A DNA stretch of 42,773 nt from a virus. The stretch is from IMG/VR virus record IMGVR_UViG_3300001815_000053, positions 1 to 42,773 of that record; one strand, 5' to 3'. The notes beneath the pieces were generated by a model. The model was not told where the DNA came from. It worked only from the letters and a program-made list of their open reading frames with translations, and did not search any database. Positions 25,629 to 40,659 of this stretch are shown one piece after another (the first letter of the stretch is position 1; every line of letters begins with the position of its first letter). The position numbers and the translations under genes are program-made.

Positions 25629-26006
25629 TCAGTCCGTATCGGGAGGGGAAAACAGGTCGAGCTGGCGCGGATCGGCCCGGCCCATGTCGGCCAGCAGGCG
25701 GCGCACGTGGCGCTGTGTCAGGCCGACGGCCTGGGCGATGGCGCCCAGCGGCTCGCCGCTGTCATACATGCGCCTGATCATGGCCCGATGGTGGAGGGTC
25801 CGGCAAGAGGGCACGCAAATCCGCTCACCGCCGCGCCGCTCGATCAGCGCCGTCGCGTGCTCGCCCATGGCCTGGACCAGCGGGTGCTCGGGGTCCGCGC
25901 GGACCGGCACATACAGGTCCAGCCCGCCGCGCACCTGGACGAGGCGGACGGCCGCCGCCTCGCCGATCTCCTCGGCCAGGTCCAGATATGACTGCGGCAG
26001 GGTCAT
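25629..26006 (-). CDS. mor: Mor/C-family transcription activator
   Basis: Starting at ATG 26006 (ATGA overlap with GemA) gives 125 residues. It has the Mor activator family plan: a dimerisation half with GGLDLYVPVR, then RRGGERICVPS, and a C-terminal HTH at 86-107 (LGAIAQAVGLTQRHVRRLLADM). In Mu, Mor turns on the middle promoter and its relative C the late promoters. Only one such gene is present here, so it probably switches on late genes directly. It ends the early/middle gene string. Confidence 0.92.
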   Translation of the reverse strand: MTLPQSYLDLAEEIGEAAAVRLVQVRGGLDLYVPVRADPEHPLVQAMGEHATALIERRGGERICVPSCRTLHHRAMIRRMYDSGEPLGAIAQAVGLTQRHVRRLLADMGRADPRQLDLFSPPDTD

Positions 26007-26461
26007 TCGGCGCCCCCGTCCCCGGCCGCCGTCTCCCCGTCCAGGCGGGCGATCCACTGTTTCAGGGACTCCACCAGCAGGCGCAGGTCGTTGTTGGACA
26101 GAATGTCCGGGTCCAAGAGGACGTCGGCGCCCGGCTGGAGCTGGCGGCCGCACCAGGTGCGGAGCGCGGCGCGCCGATCGGCGGCGGATTTGGCACGCAC
26201 GGCGCCGCGCCGGCACAGCTCGCCCCATTGGGCGTGGACCTTGCGCGCCAGCGGATTGGCGGCGGGCCGGTAGGGTTTCCGCCGCCCGCCGCGCAGCCGG
26301 TCATATTCGGCCAGCACGGCGCCGAGCTGCGCGTCCGTCATCTCGCGGGCGGAGCGGCACCCGGTCAGGCGGTGCATCAGATCGCGCCGGGCCTCGTCGT
26401 CCAGGCCCAGCTCGCGGGCGCCGGCGTGGATCGCGCGCATCCGTGCGGATCGGTCGCTCAT
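26003..26461 (-). CDS. gemA: GemA regulatory protein (DUF1018, Mu gp16-like)
   Basis: A 152-residue DUF1018 protein: MRAIHAGARELGLDDEARR, LTGCRSAREMTDAQLGAVL, ANPLARKVHAQWGELCRRG, AALRTWCGRQ. In Mu, GemA changes host gene expression and DNA supercoiling. It precedes Mor as in Mu relatives. Confidence 0.92.
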   Translation of the reverse strand: MSDRSARMRAIHAGARELGLDDEARRDLMHRLTGCRSAREMTDAQLGAVLAEYDRLRGGRRKPYRPAANPLARKVHAQWGELCRRGAVRAKSAADRRAALRTWCGRQLQPGADVLLDPDILSNNDLRLLVESLKQWIARLDGETAAGDGGAE

Positions 26462-28584: not shown

Positions 28585-28932
28585 TCAGCCGTCCAGCACC
28601 GTGCCGGCCGGGAGGTCCGGACGGAAAAAGCCCAACTTCCCGCGACAGGCCACGAACGGCAGCGGGCGCGGATCGCGCAGCACCCATCCCCAGGGGCCGC
28701 ACCACCACCGGCTGTCGGAGTGGTCGAGACAATCGACGATCTCCACCGACCCGACGATGCCGCCCAGGGGCAGACCAAGACGCCGGATCGTTTCCGGGGC
28801 CTCAACCGTCGTGAGGCCGGCGTGGATTAGAACGCGGCCCCGGACTTTGGTCGGCCACGACCGATTCTCGACGTCCTTGCCGTCGTGCAGGATGTGATGC
28901 GCCCATGGCTGGCGGATGGAGATGGCGATCAC
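28585..28932 (-). CDS. ASCH-domain protein
   Basis: The 115 residues fit an ASCH fold (PUA-like, RNA-binding): AISIRQPWAHHILHDGKDVE, NRSWPTKVRGRVLIHAGL, GGIVGSVEIVDCLDHSDS, then W-rich VLRDPRPLPFVACRGKLGFF. ASCH proteins are common in phages and may act in RNA modification or translation control. The overlap with its upstream neighbour (ATGA) puts it in one operon with the DnaA-I-like gene. Confidence 0.88.
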   Translation of the reverse strand: MIAISIRQPWAHHILHDGKDVENRSWPTKVRGRVLIHAGLTTVEAPETIRRLGLPLGGIVGSVEIVDCLDHSDSRWWCGPWGWVLRDPRPLPFVACRGKLGFFRPDLPAGTVLDG

Positions 28933-29465
28933 GGCATCACCTCAATCTCGGGCATGTGGCCGAGCGCGCGCCGGATCAGGTGATCCAGGCGCGTTTCCAG
29001 CCACTGGGCATGGAAGGCGTGCGGCGCCCACATCTCCGTGACCTGGCCGTCTGACCCGGTCTCGATCCGGCACGGGCGGATCCAGCGGTCATAGGCTCCC
29101 CGGTCCATGCCGGCGTCGCGGAAGTGCGGCCACCACAGGTCCTCGGCCTCGGGAGGCTCGAAGGTCGGCCCGGCGGGCACTTCGGGCGGATCCTGAAACG
29201 CCTCGTCCTCGAACCTCCGATCCCGAAGCCACGTTTTGGCGTGGGGGATGTAGGTCCGCTCCAGTTGGCGCTCCCGGCACTGGTCCGCGTGGCGCTGGGC
29301 GGCGCGGACCAGGAACGCGGGATCGACACCCCCGGCCGGGCCAGCGCCGATCAGCCGGGCGAACACCTCCCGCGCGGCGGCCTTGCCGTCCTTACGCGGA
29401 TACGCCGCCCAGAAGGCCGCGAACGCCGCCTCCTGCGCGGTCGTCAGTTTCGCGGGGGGCTTCAT
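28929..29465 (-). CDS. replication-type protein ending in a DnaA domain I-like domain
   Basis: 178 residues. The N-terminal half (FAAFWAAYPRKDGKAAARE, YIPHAKTWLRDRRFED) is the pattern seen in phage replication/helicase-loader proteins. Residues 108-178 read like DnaA domain I: LWWPHFRDA, YDRWIRPCRIETGSDGQVTE, MWAPHAFHAQWLETRLDHLI, including the WIRP and AP-x-x-F-x-x-x-W landmarks. DnaA domain I binds the helicase DnaB and the regulator DiaA. The protein may therefore recruit host replication proteins to phage DNA or divert them. Domain call by eye. Confidence 0.72.
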   Translation of the reverse strand: MKPPAKLTTAQEAAFAAFWAAYPRKDGKAAAREVFARLIGAGPAGGVDPAFLVRAAQRHADQCRERQLERTYIPHAKTWLRDRRFEDEAFQDPPEVPAGPTFEPPEAEDLWWPHFRDAGMDRGAYDRWIRPCRIETGSDGQVTEMWAPHAFHAQWLETRLDHLIRRALGHMPEIEVMP

Positions 29466-29893
29466 GCCGCACCATCCCCGGCCGGCTCGGCCTGGTGGGC
29501 ATCCTGCCTGTGCATCGTGTCCAGCGCCGCGATCAGCAGAGCGGCGGCCTGGATTATGTCGCACCGGGCCGTGTCGCGGTAGCCGGGTCCCTGAAGGCGC
29601 AGGTCGATGGCCGCCCCCTCCACCCGACCGCGCGCCAGATCCAGCAACGGGCGCGGGCCGAGCTGATCGGCCGCCTCCCCCGAGTACCCCAGGTCCACCA
29701 CCTGCCGGGCGCGCTCGACCAGCGCGGCGGCCGCGCCGGGGGAGATGCGCAGGAGGCTGTACAGCCAATCCTGGGTATGGGACTCGTGGTCGCACCAGCA
29801 CGGCACCCGGTCAGCAGATGTCATGCGTGCCACCACAGTGATTGCGGCGTCGGAGACCCCGCCTCGCGGATCCGCCACATCGATCATCGGCAT
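29462..29893 (-). CDS. early protein, unknown
   Basis: 143 residues after a strong AGGGAGGGGCGGGTC-ATG start. A CWCDH motif near the N-terminus could bind metal. The rest is helical (RISPGAAAALVERARQVVDL, CDIIQAAALLIAALDTMHRQ). ATGA overlap to the DnaA-I-like gene. Confidence 0.62.
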   Translation of the reverse strand: MPMIDVADPRGGVSDAAITVVARMTSADRVPCWCDHESHTQDWLYSLLRISPGAAAALVERARQVVDLGYSGEAADQLGPRPLLDLARGRVEGAAIDLRLQGPGYRDTARCDIIQAAALLIAALDTMHRQDAHQAEPAGDGAA

Positions 29894-29906
29894 GACCCGC
29901 CCCTCC

Positions 29907-30431
29907 CTACGCCGCCGTCTCGACAGCGGCGGCGTCCTTCAGCAGGGCATCCACCATCTTGTCGATCTCGCTGTCGGTGACGCGCACGACCACCTCGTCG
30001 CCGGCCTCCACGACCGTGACGCCGATGCGGCGCAGCTCGGCGACCGAGAGCTGGTTCAGGGCGCCCTTGACCGGGGTTTCGCTGGTCTTGACCAGGGTCT
30101 CGACCTGATCGGGGAAGTGCTTGCGGATCAGATCGCAGACCTTCGCGGCGTCCGCGTATTCCAGCTTTCCCTTGCCCTTCGCAAAACCGACCTTGATGCC
30201 GTGCAGGGTGAGAGTCCGGGGCGACTGGAACAGGTCCGACGCCTCGCCCACGGCGGCGGCCAGCCGATCCCGCGCGTTGGACGCGCCGTCCACCAGACGG
30301 CGGATGCGGGCCAGGTGCTGGCGCTTGACCCGCGCCATCTCCTCCTCGACCGCGCGGACCTCGTCCGCGAGCTTGCCGTGGGCCTCGCTGTAGGTCTTGG
30401 CGAGGGCTTCAATGTCTCCCAGGGTGGGCAT
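29907..30431 (-). CDS. Gam-position coiled-coil protein, possible host-nuclease inhibitor
   Basis: A 174-residue protein: residues 1-60 are coiled coil (IEALAKTYSEAHGKLADEVR, VEEEMARVKRQHLARI). The core is TLTLHGIKVGFAKGKGKLEY, with AELRRIGVTVVEAGDEVVVR. It has the size and early location of Mu Gam, which binds DNA ends and blocks RecBCD, and related proteins in Mu-like prophages are often labelled so. Sequence likeness to Mu Gam itself is weak. Confidence 0.6.
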   Translation of the reverse strand: MPTLGDIEALAKTYSEAHGKLADEVRAVEEEMARVKRQHLARIRRLVDGASNARDRLAAAVGEASDLFQSPRTLTLHGIKVGFAKGKGKLEYADAAKVCDLIRKHFPDQVETLVKTSETPVKGALNQLSVAELRRIGVTVVEAGDEVVVRVTDSEIDKMVDALLKDAAAVETAA

Positions 30432-30610
30432 TAGCGTCTCCTCAACAGGCGTTTGAACAGTCTCTGAAGGGCATTCGGGCGCCGCCTCGGCGGCACCGGG
30501 ACCAGCGTCCCGCCCACCAACAGGCGCACCGGCACGCCGGCGGCAGGACGGCGCGCGTCCACGATGATGTGCGCCGGCCGGGCGCGGCGGGGTCGGCTGG
30601 CGGCGGTCAT
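30431..30610 (-). CDS. 59-residue Arg/Pro-rich basic protein
   Basis: ATG 30610 in an ATGA overlap; the stop overlaps the next start (TAATG). The text is highly basic: TAASRPRRARPAHIIVDARR and a final LQRLFKRLLRRR. Tight packing supports it. A nucleic acid-binding peptide is likely. Confidence 0.6.
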   Translation of the reverse strand: MTAASRPRRARPAHIIVDARRPAAGVPVRLLVGGTLVPVPPRRRPNALQRLFKRLLRRR

Positions 30611-30939
30611 GACGCGGGCTCCTCGGTCGGCGCCGGCGCCACCATGGCCCGCACGGCCTCCATCCGCGCGGCCACCTCCGGGTCGCCGGCGGCGCGCTGC
30701 GCCGTGCGTCGGCACGCGTGCATCACGGTGGTGTGGTCGGACCGCCGGAAGGCGCGCGCGATCGCCGGGTAGCTGGCCAGGGTCAGGTCACGGGCCAGCG
30801 TCATCGCCGCCTGGCGCGCCGCCACGATTCGGCCCGCCCGGCGATCCGACAGCAGGTCGAGGACCGACACCCCCCACACGTCGGACGTGGCGAGGACGAT
30901 CCGCCGGATCGGCGGCGGGAGTGGTGCGGGGGACGTCAT
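30607..30939 (-). CDS. stand-alone DnaA domain IV protein
   Basis: The 110 residues carry nearly all of the DnaA C-terminal DNA-binding domain: LDLLSDRRAGRIVAARQAAM, TLARDLTLASYPAIARAF, then RRSDHTTVMHACRR, with the DnaA signature DHTTVxHAC at 68-76. The DHT residues that read the DnaA box are kept. There is no AAA+ domain and no domain I. It could occupy DnaA boxes at the host origin or at phage sites. ATGA overlaps on both sides. Confidence 0.88.
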   Translation of the reverse strand: MTSPAPLPPPIRRIVLATSDVWGVSVLDLLSDRRAGRIVAARQAAMTLARDLTLASYPAIARAFRRSDHTTVMHACRRTAQRAAGDPEVAARMEAVRAMVAPAPTEEPAS

Positions 30940-31346
30940 GACGCACCTTCCCCGGCCGGCGCCTGGACGTTCAGGGCGATCACCGCAGCGCTGAGGGCCT
31001 GCAACTGCTCACCCACCGACCCCACCACCGGCACGCCGGCGGCGATGTGGTGCGCCAGCTCGACCGCCCGAGCGCGGCTGTCGCCACCGACCAGGGTCAC
31101 CGCGCCGTCGTCGCCGATGTCGACGGTGACAAACAGCATGTCGCCGGCCGTCTGTTCGGCGGACGCGGAGACAGCCTCCAGCCGCAGGCCCCAGACCTCC
31201 CGACCGGGGCCGATCTGCCGCGCCGTATGCAGGACCGCCGACACCGGCCGGTCCTTGGGCCGCACACCCAGGCGCAGTTGGACGCGCTCCCCAAAGGCCA
31301 CCGGCCGACGCCGGGGTGGGGAGGAGACAACGCTGGGGCTCATCAT
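30936..31346 (-). CDS. early protein, unknown
   Basis: 136 residues, starting at tandem ATG codons. A beta-rich middle (VQLRLGVRPKDRPVSAVLHT, DMLFVTVDIGDDGAVTLVGG) and an Ala-rich helical end. No motif is recognised. Coupled by overlaps on both sides. Confidence 0.6.
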   Translation of the reverse strand: MMSPSVVSSPPRRRPVAFGERVQLRLGVRPKDRPVSAVLHTARQIGPGREVWGLRLEAVSASAEQTAGDMLFVTVDIGDDGAVTLVGGDSRARAVELAHHIAAGVPVVGSVGEQLQALSAAVIALNVQAPAGEGAS

Positions 31347-32238: not shown

Positions 32239-32905
32239 GGCCACCCCCCGCGACGTCTACCGACGCCTCGCCCATGAACTCATTGCGGTTCGGGTCCCAG
32301 ACGGCATGACTGATCCGCGCGATCATCGGCGCCGCCGGCCCGGTGTTCATGCCGGCCCGCAGGGCGTAGCGGGTCAGCGTGCCCGTGCCGGGCTTGTGCC
32401 CCGGCCGGCCCTCCTCGACGACGCGCAGATATCCGGCCCGGCACAGATGGCCCAGATAGCAGTGCGCCGCCCCACGACTGACCGGACGCGTGTCGGTGGA
32501 CGCCATGACCGCCATGTCGTCGGCCGTGACCCCATCGCGCCCGATCATCCGCAGGGTGCGCCACATAGCCTCCTGCCCCGTGGGCGGGCTCTCCGTGCCG
32601 TCGCGGCGCAGGCGCGGCGCTTCCGGCCCCGCGTCGCGGACCAGGCACCACAGGGCCGCCCTCGCGCGGCTGGTCCGGCCACCCTCGCGCTCCACGTGTC
32701 CCACGCGCTCCACGTATCCGGCGAGCTCCAGACGCCGGACATAGTCGCGCACGCTGTCGGGCGCCTGGATGTCGGTGTCGATCCAGATGTCGCGCACGGT
32801 CCACGGCGCGCCGCGCCGCTCCCGGATCGCCTCCCAGATGCCCTGATGCCCGCGCTTGACCTTCACGCGCAGCGCGCCCTCGATATGACAGGGGTGCCGG
32901 CTCAT
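32231..32905 (-). CDS. double winged-helix protein downstream of MuB
   Basis: From ATG 32905 (ATGA overlap with the B gene), 224 residues. Two winged-helix-like segments can be read: residues 15-75 (GIWEAIRERRGAPWTVRDIW, DYVRRLELAGYVERVG) and 110-180 (MWRTLRMIGRDGVTADDMAV, YLGHLCRAGYLRVVEEG). It may regulate early genes or assist transposition. Confidence 0.7.
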   Translation of the reverse strand: MSRHPCHIEGALRVKVKRGHQGIWEAIRERRGAPWTVRDIWIDTDIQAPDSVRDYVRRLELAGYVERVGHVEREGGRTSRARAALWCLVRDAGPEAPRLRRDGTESPPTGQEAMWRTLRMIGRDGVTADDMAVMASTDTRPVSRGAAHCYLGHLCRAGYLRVVEEGRPGHKPGTGTLTRYALRAGMNTGPAAPMIARISHAVWDPNRNEFMGEASVDVAGGGHG

Positions 32906-33675
32906 GGGCGGCCTCCCCGGGCGGGCACCCGCTCGCCGGCGCGCATGGACGGCACCTGACCGGTGTACAACTCGCGCTCGCCCCAGCTGGCGAGGCCCAC
33001 CGTGTCCCAGCCCTGGGCCAGCGCCTCGGTCGCCACCTGGTGCAGGTTGACCACCGCCCGCCGGATGCGCCCGGCCGACGCGGTGGTGACCCGCTCGATC
33101 AGGTCCGCCGCGATAACTAGGTCCGGGTAGTACAGGCGGGCGACCGTCGCGACGTCCTCGGCCGTCACCGGCTCCGCCGCCGCCCATTGCAGCACGCGGT
33201 TGTGGGTGCGCTCCGACCGCGCCGCGATCATCTGCGGCAACGCCTCCTCGCCCACCAGGATGATCGGCACCCCCGCCCGATCCGCGATTTCGCGCACGGT
33301 CTCGATGTACCCGCGCCGCACGACGTGGTCGGCCTCGTCGATGATGACCGGCCGGTCCTGCGCCTCGCAGGCCATGATGATCCGGTCCACCACGTCGGCC
33401 GCGCGGCCGCGTCCGTCCACGCCCACCTCGACGGCCAGCACGGACAGGAACCGCGCCCGCGTCCAGCTCTCGCCGCATTCCACGTACCGCGCGCGGGTGC
33501 GGTGGGCGGCGTGGGTGGCTGACCAGGTCTTGCCCAGGCCCGAGTGGCCGTAGAACACGCCCAGGCCCGGCAGGTGCCGGGGCCGCTGGACACACGCATC
33601 CACCAGCGCGCCGAACCGCAGTACATTGGTGAGCGGCGCTGTGGTGGCGTTGACGGTGGGCTGTTTGTCGGTCAT
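32902..33675 (-). CDS. B: transposition protein B, AAA+ ATPase
   Basis: Start ATG 33675 with GAGGGAA upstream; 257 residues. Walker A GHSGLGKT at 43-50 and Walker B RPVIIDEADH at 108-117 mark an AAA+ ATPase. The C-terminus is a small helical domain (LIERVTTASAGRIRRAVVNL). MuB binds target DNA, activates MuA and gives target immunity. The gene follows A, as in Mu. Confidence 0.95.
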   Translation of the reverse strand: MTDKQPTVNATTAPLTNVLRFGALVDACVQRPRHLPGLGVFYGHSGLGKTWSATHAAHRTRARYVECGESWTRARFLSVLAVEVGVDGRGRAADVVDRIIMACEAQDRPVIIDEADHVVRRGYIETVREIADRAGVPIILVGEEALPQMIAARSERTHNRVLQWAAAEPVTAEDVATVARLYYPDLVIAADLIERVTTASAGRIRRAVVNLHQVATEALAQGWDTVGLASWGERELYTGQVPSMRAGERVPARGGRP

Positions 33676-33736: not shown

Positions 33737-35845
33737 TTAGGCGGACGCCTGTCCGCCACCCAGGCCGGACAGGAAGATGTCCGCGCCCCATTCCTCCAGC
33801 GCCGCTTCGTGGCTCCGGTATTCCGGCGTCTGCGAATACCCCCGCGCCCAGCGCAGGGCCTCGGCGTCCACCGGTCGGCCGGCGGCGTGTGCCTCCAGCG
33901 TCTGGTGGGCGCGCCACCAGCGCTCTTTCGGGGTCTCGTCTCGCTTGGGCGGCGCGGCCATCTCGGCCGCCAGCCGCTCTTTCGCGGCCAGCTCGTCGGC
34001 CGTCAGTTCGCGCGGCGCCGGCGCCGGCGGTTCGGCCAGCAGGATCGGCGCGGCGCTCTCGTCGCGCAGGGCCATCGCGTCCTGCGCCGTGGCGCGGCGC
34101 TCTCTGGCCTGCTGCACATCGTCATCGTTGAAATACGGGCGCGTGTTGCCGTTCTCGGCCGCCTCGCAGATCAGGCGCCCATCCAGATCGCGGATCCACA
34201 CCCGGCCCATGTCGCGCGGGTCGTACTCGACGCGCACTTCCTGGCCGTGCATGTCCAGGTCATCCAGGGTCTGCGAGAAGTATTTCCGCGCGCCGAGCTG
34301 CACCCACGCCCGGCGCACCGTGCGGATCTCATGCGGCCGGAACAGGTCCCGCGCCTCGGCCTCGCTCAGGCGCGGCGGCACCACGCCCAGATCGTCCGCC
34401 GACGGTAGCAGCGCGACCCACTGTTCGGCCGGCGTGCGATGCCGCATCTTGCCCGTCTCCGGGTCGCGGACGCGGGGCAGGCTGCTGTGTGGCCGGTTGT
34501 TGTAGCGCGCCCGGCAATCCTCGACCCATGCCAGGAAGGCGTCCCAGGTCTGAATGACGGGGGAGTGACCGTAGGTTTTGATGTCCTTCCGCGAGGCTTT
34601 AAACGCGATTTGCTTGGCCTCGCGGTCCATATCGTGCCCGACATAGGCCGCCGACTGCCGCGCCGGCGCGATCAGGCCGGTCTGGTGGAACCGCTCGATC
34701 ACGCCCCGGGCCTGCGAGTTGTACGGGATCGAGTTCCGGCTGGTGATACCCAGCCGGGCCATCAGGCCCGTCACCGGGTCGTTATGGGCGCGATTTCGAA
34801 ATCCACAGCCATTATCGACGTACCAAATGGCCGGGATCCCGGCGCCAACCACCGCTGTCCGCAGCGCCGCCGCCACCAGCCACTCGGCCTCGTCGGTCCA
34901 GGCCGACCAGCCCACCCAGGCCCGCGTCGCCACATCCAGCACGCTGATGATCTCCGGCCGCTTCGGCCGGCTCGGGTCGAGCGGGTGCGCCACCTCGCGA
35001 TCGTGACGGTGGCCGTCCGACGTGTACACGTCCCCGGGCAGCAGGTGGTCGAAGCTACGGATTGCCAGCGCCCTGAACCGCTTCAGGTCGCGCGGGCCGA
35101 CCCGGCCCTTGTTCTTGCCGACCGCCCCCAGGCTGGCGATGAACCGCCGCGCCTGGTCATAGGACGGCGCCGCCACCGGCGCGGTCTCCGGCCACCATTC
35201 CAGGCACGCCGCGATGGACGGCTTCTGGGGCCGGAGATACAACTTCATCAAGGGATAGGCCCACGCTGGCGCCTCTCGCGGCAACTCCTCGGCCGGCGCC
35301 AGGGCGGTGATATCGCCCGCCGCCCGCGCCGCCAGCCACCGCTGGACCGACCGCAGCGACAGCACGCGCGAGCCCGAGGAGCCGCGCCGGGCATTGGCCC
35401 GGGGCACCATGCGCATGAGATGCTCGGGCAGCTTCCCGGCCCGCGCCTGATCGACCAGCGCCTGCGCCGCCTGCCGCTCCGACAGGCCGTATTCCAGGCA
35501 CAGCCGATCCACCTCCTGGCACAGCGCCGCGCGGGCATCCATGCACGACCGCGTTCCGTCGCGCATGTCCGCCGGATCGCGCTGCCCGCGCTCGGCCGCC
35601 ACCACCGCCGGCGGCGGCGCCTCGGCCGCCAGCTCGCGCCGCGCCAGCGCCGCCCGCGTCGTCTCGGGCAGCGCCGAGACCGGGTACTCCCGCCCGCCGC
35701 CCCGCCCCTGACGGGGACGATAGGGCCATTCTTCCCGCCGGGCCTTGATCTGCACCGCCCGTTCCGTGCCGGGCATGTCGGGCAGGGCGAGCTCCGCCAG
35801 TTCGGCGGCCGTGTACCAGCGATCTGGGGTGGGCAAGGCCGGCAT
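33737..35845 (-). CDS. A: transposase A (MuA family)
   Basis: The real start is ATG 35845, overlapping the previous stop; 702 residues. The N-terminus (WYTAAELAELALPDMPGTER) resembles the Mu enhancer-binding winged helix. The DDE core has D277 (YTSDGHRHD), D344 (WYVDNGCGF) and E384 (GVIERFH); the D-D spacing of 67 equals that of Mu (269/336). Residues 470 onward form the Mu C-terminal beta barrel (VRVEYDPRDMGRVWIRDLDG) and a helical tail that would contact B. It catalyses replicative transposition. Confidence 0.97.
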   Translation of the reverse strand: MPALPTPDRWYTAAELAELALPDMPGTERAVQIKARREEWPYRPRQGRGGGREYPVSALPETTRAALARRELAAEAPPPAVVAAERGQRDPADMRDGTRSCMDARAALCQEVDRLCLEYGLSERQAAQALVDQARAGKLPEHLMRMVPRANARRGSSGSRVLSLRSVQRWLAARAAGDITALAPAEELPREAPAWAYPLMKLYLRPQKPSIAACLEWWPETAPVAAPSYDQARRFIASLGAVGKNKGRVGPRDLKRFRALAIRSFDHLLPGDVYTSDGHRHDREVAHPLDPSRPKRPEIISVLDVATRAWVGWSAWTDEAEWLVAAALRTAVVGAGIPAIWYVDNGCGFRNRAHNDPVTGLMARLGITSRNSIPYNSQARGVIERFHQTGLIAPARQSAAYVGHDMDREAKQIAFKASRKDIKTYGHSPVIQTWDAFLAWVEDCRARYNNRPHSSLPRVRDPETGKMRHRTPAEQWVALLPSADDLGVVPPRLSEAEARDLFRPHEIRTVRRAWVQLGARKYFSQTLDDLDMHGQEVRVEYDPRDMGRVWIRDLDGRLICEAAENGNTRPYFNDDDVQQARERRATAQDAMALRDESAAPILLAEPPAPAPRELTADELAAKERLAAEMAAPPKRDETPKERWWRAHQTLEAHAAGRPVDAEALRWARGYSQTPEYRSHEAALEEWGADIFLSGLGGGQASA

Positions 35846-37324: not shown

Positions 37325-37486
37325 TTTCGGGCACACGCAAGCGTGAATTTCCGTTTCGGACTTCCGTCGTTCCCGAAATCGGCATTACCGCTCGCAATAC
37401 GTTGAAAACGATGGAAAAAATGGAAGTCCGAAACGCGCACCGCTCCCTTGCACAAATTTCGGAGTTCGGGCCGTGAACTCCGAAAT
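37325..37486. promoter_or_regulatory. operator/enhancer region with six TTTCGG half-sites
   Basis: Half-sites TTTCGG lie at 37325(+), 37354(+), 37378(-), 37433(-), 37457(+) and 37485(-). CGTTTCGGACTTCC (37352-37365) is exactly inverted at 37422-37435. ATTTCGGAGTTC/GAACTCCGAAAT (37456-37486) is a perfect 12-base dyad over the repressor GTG. By Mu analogy these are repressor/Ner operators and may also be the transposase enhancer. Confidence 0.8.
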
Positions 37487-38249
37487 GGACACGGATGCCG
37501 GCTTTCGCGCGCGGCTCGGCGACCTGGTGGGCAAAACACCGCCGTTTCAGTGGGCGAAAGGCGCTGGCGTCCCCACCAGCACCTGGAACCGCGCGTGGAA
37601 CGAGGGTGGCATACCCAAGGCGCCGCACTTGGTGCGGATCGCCCAATACGCCGGCGTCACGGTCGACTGGTTGCTCACCGGCGAAGGCCCGATGCGCCGG
37701 GACCAGGTCGCGGCCGAGTCCCCGCCCGAACCGGAGCCCGAGCCGGCCCGCCAGACCGTCGCCGAGCGCGTGCGGATCCTGCGCGGCACCATGCTCCTGG
37801 AGCGGTTCGCCGCCGATGTCGGTCTGAAAGTCGTGGAAATTCAGGCCCTTGAGGCCGGAGCGAGCGAGGACCGCCGGCACCTGGAGGCGATCGCCACGGC
37901 CATCGGCGTCCGCCTCGACTGGCTGCTGACCGGCGCCGGCCCGGCCCACATCCGCGCCGCGCCCGAGTCGCCGTCCGCCCCGTCCGGCGCCACCACGGCG
38001 GGCGCCACTGACGCCGACCTTTTAGGCCTGTGTTTGGAGGGATTACAGCGCGTTTACAGGGAGTTAAACGCCCGGATCGACGACCGCTCGGCCGGCCGGC
38101 TGGCCGCCCGCCTACACGACGACGTCCTGGCCGCGTGCCAGGGCAACGCGGATGCCCAACGCGCCGCCCTCAACATGGGGTTAGCCCAACTGCGCCGCGA
38201 CGTATTGGCGTCGCCAACGACCGCCGAGCATGGTAAACACTCGGCTTGA
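37473..38249 (+). CDS. c: phage repressor with two HTH domains
   Basis: 258 residues; GTG start with GGAG nine bases before. Two CI-type HTH domains are visible: residues 11-75 (QWAKGAGVPTSTWNRAWNEG, then VDWLLTGEGP) and 96-158 (RFAADVGLKVVEIQALEAGA, then LDWLLTGAGP). The ending is repeated, so the domain was duplicated. A Pro/Glu linker (81-93) joins them. No S24 peptidase follows, so RecA-type self-cleavage is unlikely. The C-terminal 100 residues are helical. It is the lysogeny repressor by position, facing Ner. Confidence 0.88.
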   Translation: MNSEMDTDAGFRARLGDLVGKTPPFQWAKGAGVPTSTWNRAWNEGGIPKAPHLVRIAQYAGVTVDWLLTGEGPMRRDQVAAESPPEPEPEPARQTVAERVRILRGTMLLERFAADVGLKVVEIQALEAGASEDRRHLEAIATAIGVRLDWLLTGAGPAHIRAAPESPSAPSGATTAGATDADLLGLCLEGLQRVYRELNARIDDRSAGRLAARLHDDVLAACQGNADAQRAALNMGLAQLRRDVLASPTTAEHGKHSA

Positions 38250-39009: not shown

Positions 39010-40659
39010 TTACGCGGCAGCGGTGTGGCGGGCGTCGGTTGCGCGCCAGTTCCAGGGCAGCAGTTCGTCCAGGCGGTTGATCTTGTGATCGTTGATCCGG
39101 GCCAGGATGTCGGTGAGGTAGGCCTCGGGGTTCAGGCCGCTCATCTTGGCGGTCTCGATGAGGGTCATGGCGTCGGCCAGGACCTCGCCGCCGCTGTCGG
39201 ACCCGGCGAACAGAAAATTCTTGCGGCCCAGGACCACGGGTTTGATGGCCCGCTCGGCCGGATTGTTGTCGATGGCCACCTCGCCGTTCTCCAGGAACAG
39301 CGTGAATGCGGACCAGCGCCCGAGGGCGTAGCGCATGGCCTTGGCCAGGTCGCTCTTGCCGGGGATACGCGGCAGCTGGGTCTCGCACCACGTCTTGAAG
39401 GCCTCGACCCTGGGGCGACTTTCGGCCTGACGGATGGCAAGACGCTGTTCCGCAGGCAGCCCGGTGATGCGGCGCTCGATGTCGTACAGCGCGCCGATCT
39501 GTTCGAGCGCGTCCCGGGCGAGGGGCGAGTCCGTCGCTTTCCAGACATCATGAAAGTCGCGCCGCAGGTGTGCCCAGCATGCCGCCTCACGCACACGCGG
39601 AGCGGTGCCGTCCCGAGCCTCGTACAGCTTGCGGAACCCCGCATAGGCGTCCGCCTGCAGGATGCCCCGGAAGTTGGCCAAATGTCGTTGCGGATGTTCA
39701 CCTTTGCGGTCCGGCGAGAAGAAATACGCGACCGCCGGCGGGTCGGTGCCGCCCCAGGGCCGGTCATCATGGACATAGGCCCAGATGCGGCCTTCCTTGA
39801 CGCCGGGTTCGTCGCCGGTCGCCTTGCGTCGGCCCGGATCGAGCACCCGGATCGGCGTGTCGTCGGCGTGCAGGCGGTCGGCCGCCAGGACCGAAGCCTT
39901 GATGCGCTCGATCAGCGGGCGCAGCGTCGCAACGCCCTGGCCGCACCAGTCGATCAGCGTGGAGCGCGGGATGTCGGCGCCGTGGCGGGCCAGGATCTCG
40001 GCCTGACGGTACAGCGGCAGGTGGTCGTCGTACTTCGACACCAGGATATGCGCCAGCAGACCGGGGCCGGCCATGCCGCGTTCCACCGGCCGCGTCGGCG
40101 CCGGCGGCTGCACCATGGTCTGGCAGTGCCGGCAGGACTTCTTCAGCCGCGCCGTCTCCACCACCTTCAGCTTGGCCGCGATGAAGTCCAGGATCTCGGC
40201 CACGTCCTCACCGACCAGACGCAGCGGCCCTCCGCAGTCCGGGCAGTGCTCGCCGGGGTCCAGGACGATGCGCTCGCGCGGGGTGTCCGGCGCCACCTTG
40301 GGCTTGCCGCGCCGGCGCGGTGCGGTCTTCTGGCTCGGCTGGTCCGTCTCCGATGCGGTGCTGGTCTCGGGGGACGGGGCGGCCTCTTCGTCCTCGGCCG
40401 GTGCCGGTTCGGCCACCGCCCGCGCCACCTCGAGCCCTTCCAGGGCCAGTTCCAGTTGCGCGATCTCGCGGTCGATCTTCTCGGAACTGCGCCCGAACTT
40501 TTGCCGCTTCAGGCGGGCGATGCGCAGCTTCAGCGCCTCCACCATCGCCTCGTAGGCCCGCAGCGACGTCGCCATGCGGCTGACCTCTTCCGTCTTGGCC
40601 AGCAGCATCGCCTTCAGAACGGCGGGATCATCGGGCAGGGTGTCGGGCGTCGTCGTCAT
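39010..40659 (-). CDS. tnpC: IS66 transposase TnpC
   Basis: 549 residues, full length for IS66 TnpC. An N-terminal leucine-rich helix (LKLRIARLKRQKFGRSSEKI), a zinc-finger-like CPDCGG...CRHC, the IS66 DDE core (HADDTPIRVLDPGRRK, ACWAHLRRDFHD, NNPAERAIKPVVLGRKNFLF), and an LDELLPWNW ending are all present. It probably cannot mobilise the truncated element alone. Confidence 0.95.
   Translation of the reverse strand: MTTTPDTLPDDPAVLKAMLLAKTEEVSRMATSLRAYEAMVEALKLRIARLKRQKFGRSSEKIDREIAQLELALEGLEVARAVAEPAPAEDEEAAPSPETSTASETDQPSQKTAPRRRGKPKVAPDTPRERIVLDPGEHCPDCGGPLRLVGEDVAEILDFIAAKLKVVETARLKKSCRHCQTMVQPPAPTRPVERGMAGPGLLAHILVSKYDDHLPLYRQAEILARHGADIPRSTLIDWCGQGVATLRPLIERIKASVLAADRLHADDTPIRVLDPGRRKATGDEPGVKEGRIWAYVHDDRPWGGTDPPAVAYFFSPDRKGEHPQRHLANFRGILQADAYAGFRKLYEARDGTAPRVREAACWAHLRRDFHDVWKATDSPLARDALEQIGALYDIERRITGLPAEQRLAIRQAESRPRVEAFKTWCETQLPRIPGKSDLAKAMRYALGRWSAFTLFLENGEVAIDNNPAERAIKPVVLGRKNFLFAGSDSGGEVLADAMTLIETAKMSGLNPEAYLTDILARINDHKINRLDELLPWNWRATDARHTAAA

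Follow-up and report, generated by a model that had tools for sequence, protein, structure and literature searches.

The window, i.e., the whole 42,773-nt stretch of IMG/VR record IMGVR_UViG_3300001815_000053 that was analysed, is a contig of a Mu-like prophage, in which A, B and Gam are recognised by Pfam and PHROGs, and the MuA, MuB and Gam genes lie together in one early operon. The minus strand holds the early genes, mostly with short overlaps. Among them are the Mu-type transposase A (33737..35845, minus strand; Pfam Mu-transpos_C and HTH_Tnp_Mu_1; phrog_310, E 1e-146), the MuB-type AAA+ transposition ATPase B (32902..33672, minus strand; phrog_296, E 3.6e-49; Pfam AAA_22) and a Mu Gam-like end-protection protein (29907..30431, minus strand; phrog_491, E 2.6e-12, and synteny). 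A CI-type repressor gene is located at 37473..38249, and an intact-looking IS66 transposase gene (39010-40659, minus strand) lies past the repressor end of the prophage. Comparison of the DNA with plasmids gave no match.

Two further genes lie inside the early block: dnaA4 (30607..30939, minus strand), which encodes a stand-alone DnaA domain IV of 110 aa, and dnaA1 (28929..29465, minus strand), which encodes a protein of 178 aa with a replication-protein module (aa ~9-105) followed by a DnaA domain I-like unit (aa ~108-178). According to the gene calls, each of the two overlaps both of its neighbours by 4 nt; a sequence-only reading of this DNA had given the coordinates and reading frames of both genes correctly, and the overlaps agree with the coupled operon that it had described. 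The short gene directly upstream of dnaA4 (30936..31346, minus strand) had no family match in the Pfam search. The gene that overlaps the end of dnaA1 encodes an ASCH domain (28585-28932, minus strand; Pfam ASCH, 23.2 bits). The variable block that contains dnaA4 and dnaA1 is bounded at its downstream end by a gene at 26003..26461 (minus strand), placed by synteny and with homologs detected by tblastn, which we take to be GemA-like.

For the window compared to the prophage G004, dN/dS was 0.43 for dnaA4 and 0.41 for dnaA1, versus 0.17-0.24 for MuA, MuB and Gam. Thus, dnaA4 and dnaA1 are real genes under purifying selection, which is weaker than the selection acting on the core genes.

The stand-alone DnaA domain IV gene

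The dnaA4 protein scores 72.9 bits against Pfam Bac_DnaA_C (E 2.1e-20; cut-off 31.5), aligns with the DnaA model TIGR00362 (437 positions) from 348 to 435, and has as its top PDB match 1j1v, in which E. coli DnaA is complexed with its box. Numbered as in E. coli DnaA, the protein retains R399, R407, Q408, P423, R432, D433, H434, T435, T436 and H439, and R405 is replaced by A. The residues that touch bases, which we take from the E. coli domain IV-DNA complex to be R399, D433, H434 and T435, form a complete set in the window copy and are kept in the G004 copy as well, in agreement with the earlier description of a bare domain IV with the box-reading DHT residues. In the G001 copy, H434 is changed to R and R399 to C, and the G106 copy lacks R399; because of these changes, the target sequence may have drifted in some relatives.

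A profile of the phage proteins ranks phage-type dnaA4 above every host DnaA. In a tree with long branches and rough support, most domain IV proteins of phages are placed apart from the group of host DnaA (branch support 95/94; the row L033, labelled host, is the G106 phage copy), with the exception of the L107/L109 pair, which sits on a very long branch, and the proteins of Mu-like phages are intermixed with those of other phages. The possibility that dnaA4 is a recent copy of host dnaA is unsupported by its position in this tree. Many records filed as phage contain full-length bacterial dnaA (frames of 437-549 aa) and were excluded from the dnaA4 matches. Such records include CAKLQH020000026.1 and the MT83xxxx series; in one of them dnaA is flanked by dnaN, recF and gyrB, indicating bacterial DNA filed as phage.

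The surroundings of dnaA4 are conserved. All seven complete loci examined have a short upstream gene that overlaps the start of dnaA4 by 4 nt, and in these loci, which come from diverse Mu-like lineages, Gam or DUF3164 sits 0-1 gene downstream (the dnaA4 loci of G024 and G025 end at contig ends). Gam is found downstream in the window, G004, G024 and G082, and DUF3164 instead in L013, L049, L053 and L054, with Pfam confirming its identity for L013 and L054 only.

Stand-alone domain IV proteins also occur in other tailed phages, namely, Rhizobium phage RHph_N28_2 (EVB88_078), ctOK67 (UOF79249.1) and the Bradyrhizobium phages ppBeUSDA76-2 and ppBjS10J-1. Like dnaA4, these are small proteins with Bac_DnaA_C and no AAA+ domain, and their genes lie next to or close to those of replication proteins; the annotated domain IV genes of RHph_N28_2 and ctOK67 directly adjoin such genes. 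However, going by their listed genes, these phages are not Mu-like, and their frames are of 125-199 aa, most of them with extra N-terminal sequence, whereas dnaA4 comprises 110 aa and belongs to the early operon of a Mu-like phage, where it precedes Gam. In three IMG/VR phage contigs of another kind (L107, L108 and L109), a stand-alone domain IV frame lies upstream of a replication protein of the TWL type.

The sequence-only reading had further proposed a scan of the phage for DnaA boxes, i.e., sites of the TTATNCACA type. The phage genome contains no exact box, and its five one-mismatch sites, compared to 3.86 expected, are no excess, with 37 of 100 shuffles reaching as high a number; boxes are few in related phages, too.

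The replication module fused to DnaA domain I

Residues 12-105 of dnaA1 match the phage replication-initiation families phrog_270 (7.8e-13), phrog_9474 and phrog_9327, and this N-terminal module is what phage replication initiators or replisome organisers carry at their C-terminus. Alignment shows the motifs FW..YPRK...K and hA.TWL, which belong to a module with which many phage replication proteins end. The dnaA1 protein starts at this module, such that the N-terminal DNA-binding half (HTH or DUF1376) is absent.

The assignment of the remaining part to DnaA domain I, proposed in the sequence-only reading, relies on several comparisons. Residues 123-168 of the window copy score 16.6 bits against DnaA_N, below the Pfam cut-off of 24.6, whereas the four relatives tested all reach it (L015, 28.6; L083, 26.0; L011, 25.2; L091, 31.3 bits). 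When a profile of four phage dnaA1 copies was compared to 18 DnaA domain I sequences, the match had a probability of 95.7% (E 1e-8). Genomes searched with the phage profile yielded the domain I part within long frames that are DnaA-like by length, most of them about 450-540 aa.

The structural model is consistent with these results. AlphaFold2 predicted the C-terminal domain (28932..29156, minus strand) at pLDDT 91.5, with the order helix-helix-strand-strand-helix-helix-strand. In a Foldseek search with the isolated domain, the first three PDB matches were DnaA domain I structures, 4tps (probability 1.00), 2e0g (0.97) and 2wp0 (0.94), with modest E-values, the best being 1.1e-3; the DciA structures 7ykm and 8a3v followed in the same list, and tau was further down. 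The full-length model retrieved no DnaA from the PDB, whereas the isolated domain did. As modelled, the C-terminal domain of dnaA1 has the DnaA domain I fold. DnaA domain I and DciA have a fold in common (PMC9825169; also seen in the Foldseek list), and DnaB is handled by both families; dnaA1 had no match to Pfam DciA (DUF721) and scores with DnaA_N instead.

The Phe equivalent to F46 of E. coli DnaA, a known contact for DnaB and DiaA (PMC4776307), is retained in dnaA1 of the window, G004, G001 and L091, together with the Trp of helix 1. This Trp is missing from the distant copies L083-L085, and the position of E. coli E21 is not conserved.

Phage replication proteins of the DUF1376 or HTH type that end in DnaA_N are known as well. 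They are represented by the L086 protein (19.9 bits against DnaA_N, also below the cut-off) and by BFVD A0A6J5SN45 of an uncultured phage, in which the domain is given by the deposited name 'DnaA N-terminal domain containing protein'. Unlike the 178 aa of dnaA1, these proteins comprise 340-400 aa, and the L086 protein has the N-terminal DUF1376 half that dnaA1 lacks. The latter protein (L086:8714-9916, G197:C2), a 400-aa DUF1376 protein with a DnaA_N-like C-terminus, shows a fuller version of the dnaA1 architecture; it is encoded in a phage-like region where no Mu-type genes were noted. In addition, Rickettsiales RAGE elements are mobile and carry DnaA_N-domain genes apart from DnaA, as in dnaA1; they are conjugative, unlike this phage, and the parts of the source that we consulted report no fusion of these genes to a replication protein (PMC10732058).

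Inheritance of the two genes

Among 317 genomes of the order, phage-type dnaA4 scored above all host DnaA in nine, full-length dnaA1 was present in four, and both genes were found on one contig in three. A scan of genome contigs with dnaA1 gave no match. The three carriers of both genes, all of one genus, are the window, G004:C117 and G001:C34; the window and G004 are close relatives, and G001:C34 has a different type of MuA and MuB. Genome G001 also contains a second Mu-like transposase (G001:C69:462-2558), 79% identical to that of the window and interrupted by two in-frame stop codons, which probably reflects the decay of a prophage or else an error in the assembly.

Elsewhere, the distribution of the two genes is patchy. 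In Mu-like phages, dnaA1 occurs without dnaA4 in L091, G012, G411 and two loci of G315, dnaA4 occurs without dnaA1 in G003, G082, G093 and G106, and neither is present in G035, G018, G017, G107 and G044. Close relatives with MuA 57-59% identical to that of the window lack both genes, and MuB is found with and without them. Over 17 Mu-like loci (3 with both genes, 5 with domain I only, 4 with domain IV only and 5 with neither), the two genes show no association (Fisher p = 1.0). It should be noted that this table is small and biased, as many loci were gathered via dnaA1 or dnaA4, so a moderate association may still exist. An obligate pair is rejected by this table, with the same reservation about its size and bias. 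The expectation that the two genes would co-occur in related prophages was borne out within one genus, where three prophages carry the pair, but not across the Mu-like loci. The sequence-only reading had named the lack of either a DnaA_N match or co-occurrence as grounds for giving it up; the relatives of dnaA1 reach the DnaA_N cut-off, and the pair is found in these three prophages.

Candidate roles of dnaA1 and dnaA4

The sequence-only reading had treated B as the supplier of the AAA+ part of DnaA and the three genes as a set of split DnaA parts. Under this explanation, dnaA4 (box), MuB (ATPase) and dnaA1 (helicase contact) would assemble into a single complex and restore DnaA function in trans, on sites of the phage or of the host, which appears very improbable. 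In the window and G004, dnaA4, B and dnaA1 share an early operon, which speaks for such a complex, and so does the presence of both DnaA pieces in G001:C34 despite its different MuA and MuB type. On the other hand, B is of the MuB type and is present without the DnaA parts, the two genes are inherited independently and are absent from close relatives, and DnaA boxes are not concentrated in the phage. A DnaA initiator is a single protein that combines AAA+ with domains I and IV; here, the two domains are in two short separate proteins. That DnaA was taken apart and reused with MuB as the ATPase, directing DnaB to transposition forks or to targeted host boxes, is very improbable. Alternatively, the two proteins could be directed against the host, dnaA1 soaking up DnaB or other partners of domain I and dnaA4 occupying oriC boxes, with the replication machinery freed for the phage. 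We consider this possible but doubtful: YfdR, which binds DnaA through F46, and lambda P, which also binds DnaA, are precedents (PMC4776307), and competition is what one would expect of domains I and IV when the ATPase is missing, whereas a pure decoy would have no need of the replisome-organiser module in dnaA1, and the fact that larger phage replication proteins contain domain I suggests a constructive role.

For dnaA4 alone, an unlikely explanation is that the protein controls the transcription of genes of the phage or the host, its DnaA fold reading another sequence, and is unrelated to replication. The lack of box enrichment in the phage, the drift of contact residues in some relatives and the long tree branches are consistent with this explanation, and the DnaA-type domain of TnpA-REP proteins is thought to have possibly changed its target (PMC6006769). 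Conversely, the base-contact residues are kept in the window and G004, and replication genes neighbour the stand-alone domain IV genes of other phages.

Because dnaA1 and dnaA4 come and go independently, and because each has relatives in ordinary tailed phages, two independent tools are a better reading than one split DnaA. There is about an even chance that the two are independent accessory early genes, each built on a DnaA-derived domain, with dnaA1 as a helicase recruiter and dnaA4 as a box competitor. For dnaA4, the retained box-reading residues, the constant place ahead of Gam or DUF3164, the separation from host DnaA in the tree and by profile score, and the replication genes beside its counterparts in RHph_N28_2 and ctOK67 favour this view; for dnaA1, the retained F46 equivalent and the DciA gene of the host do. 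The phages 57-59% identical in MuA that do without both genes count against it, as do the lack of box enrichment in the phage, the changed contact residues of the G001 and G106 copies of dnaA4, the poorly kept E21 position of dnaA1 and the missing helix-1 Trp of its distant copies. Recruitment of DnaB is the best explanation of dnaA1 because the protein combines a replisome-organiser module with the part of DnaA that makes contact with DnaB. As an adaptor, dnaA1 would bring host DnaB, and the loader DciA, which the host genome encodes, to the forks left by replicative transposition. The bare DNA-binding domain of dnaA4 would bind DnaA boxes and, with presumably early expression, would, in the lytic phase, rival host DnaA for sites at the origin or in promoters under DnaA control; since a bare domain IV binds boxes and cannot melt DNA, competition at host boxes is the simplest reading of this gene. 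Thus, blocking of the host origin by dnaA4 and gathering of DnaB by dnaA1, both suggested previously, are plausible as separate roles.

The DnaA-like parts are of known kinds, given that similar pieces exist in non-Mu phages. New features are the short dnaA1 that lacks the DNA-binding half, the distribution of this form among Mu-like phages and, within one genus, its occurrence alongside dnaA4. We found no literature on DnaA domains in Mu-like phages among open-licence papers, in line with the sequence-only reading, which knew of no described Mu-like phage with this pair. To convert its transposition product into a fork, phage Mu depends on primosome proteins of the host, and E. coli provides DnaC and DnaT. 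Most bacteria use DciA instead (PMC9825169). The present host also encodes DciA, which raises the question of how forks are begun by Mu-like phages in hosts of this type. With its replisome-organiser module fused to DnaA domain I, dnaA1 is a direct candidate for the fork-start step in Mu-like phages, and dnaA4, an early-operon gene for a bare reader of DnaA boxes, offers a simple candidate means by which the phage could slow initiation in the host.
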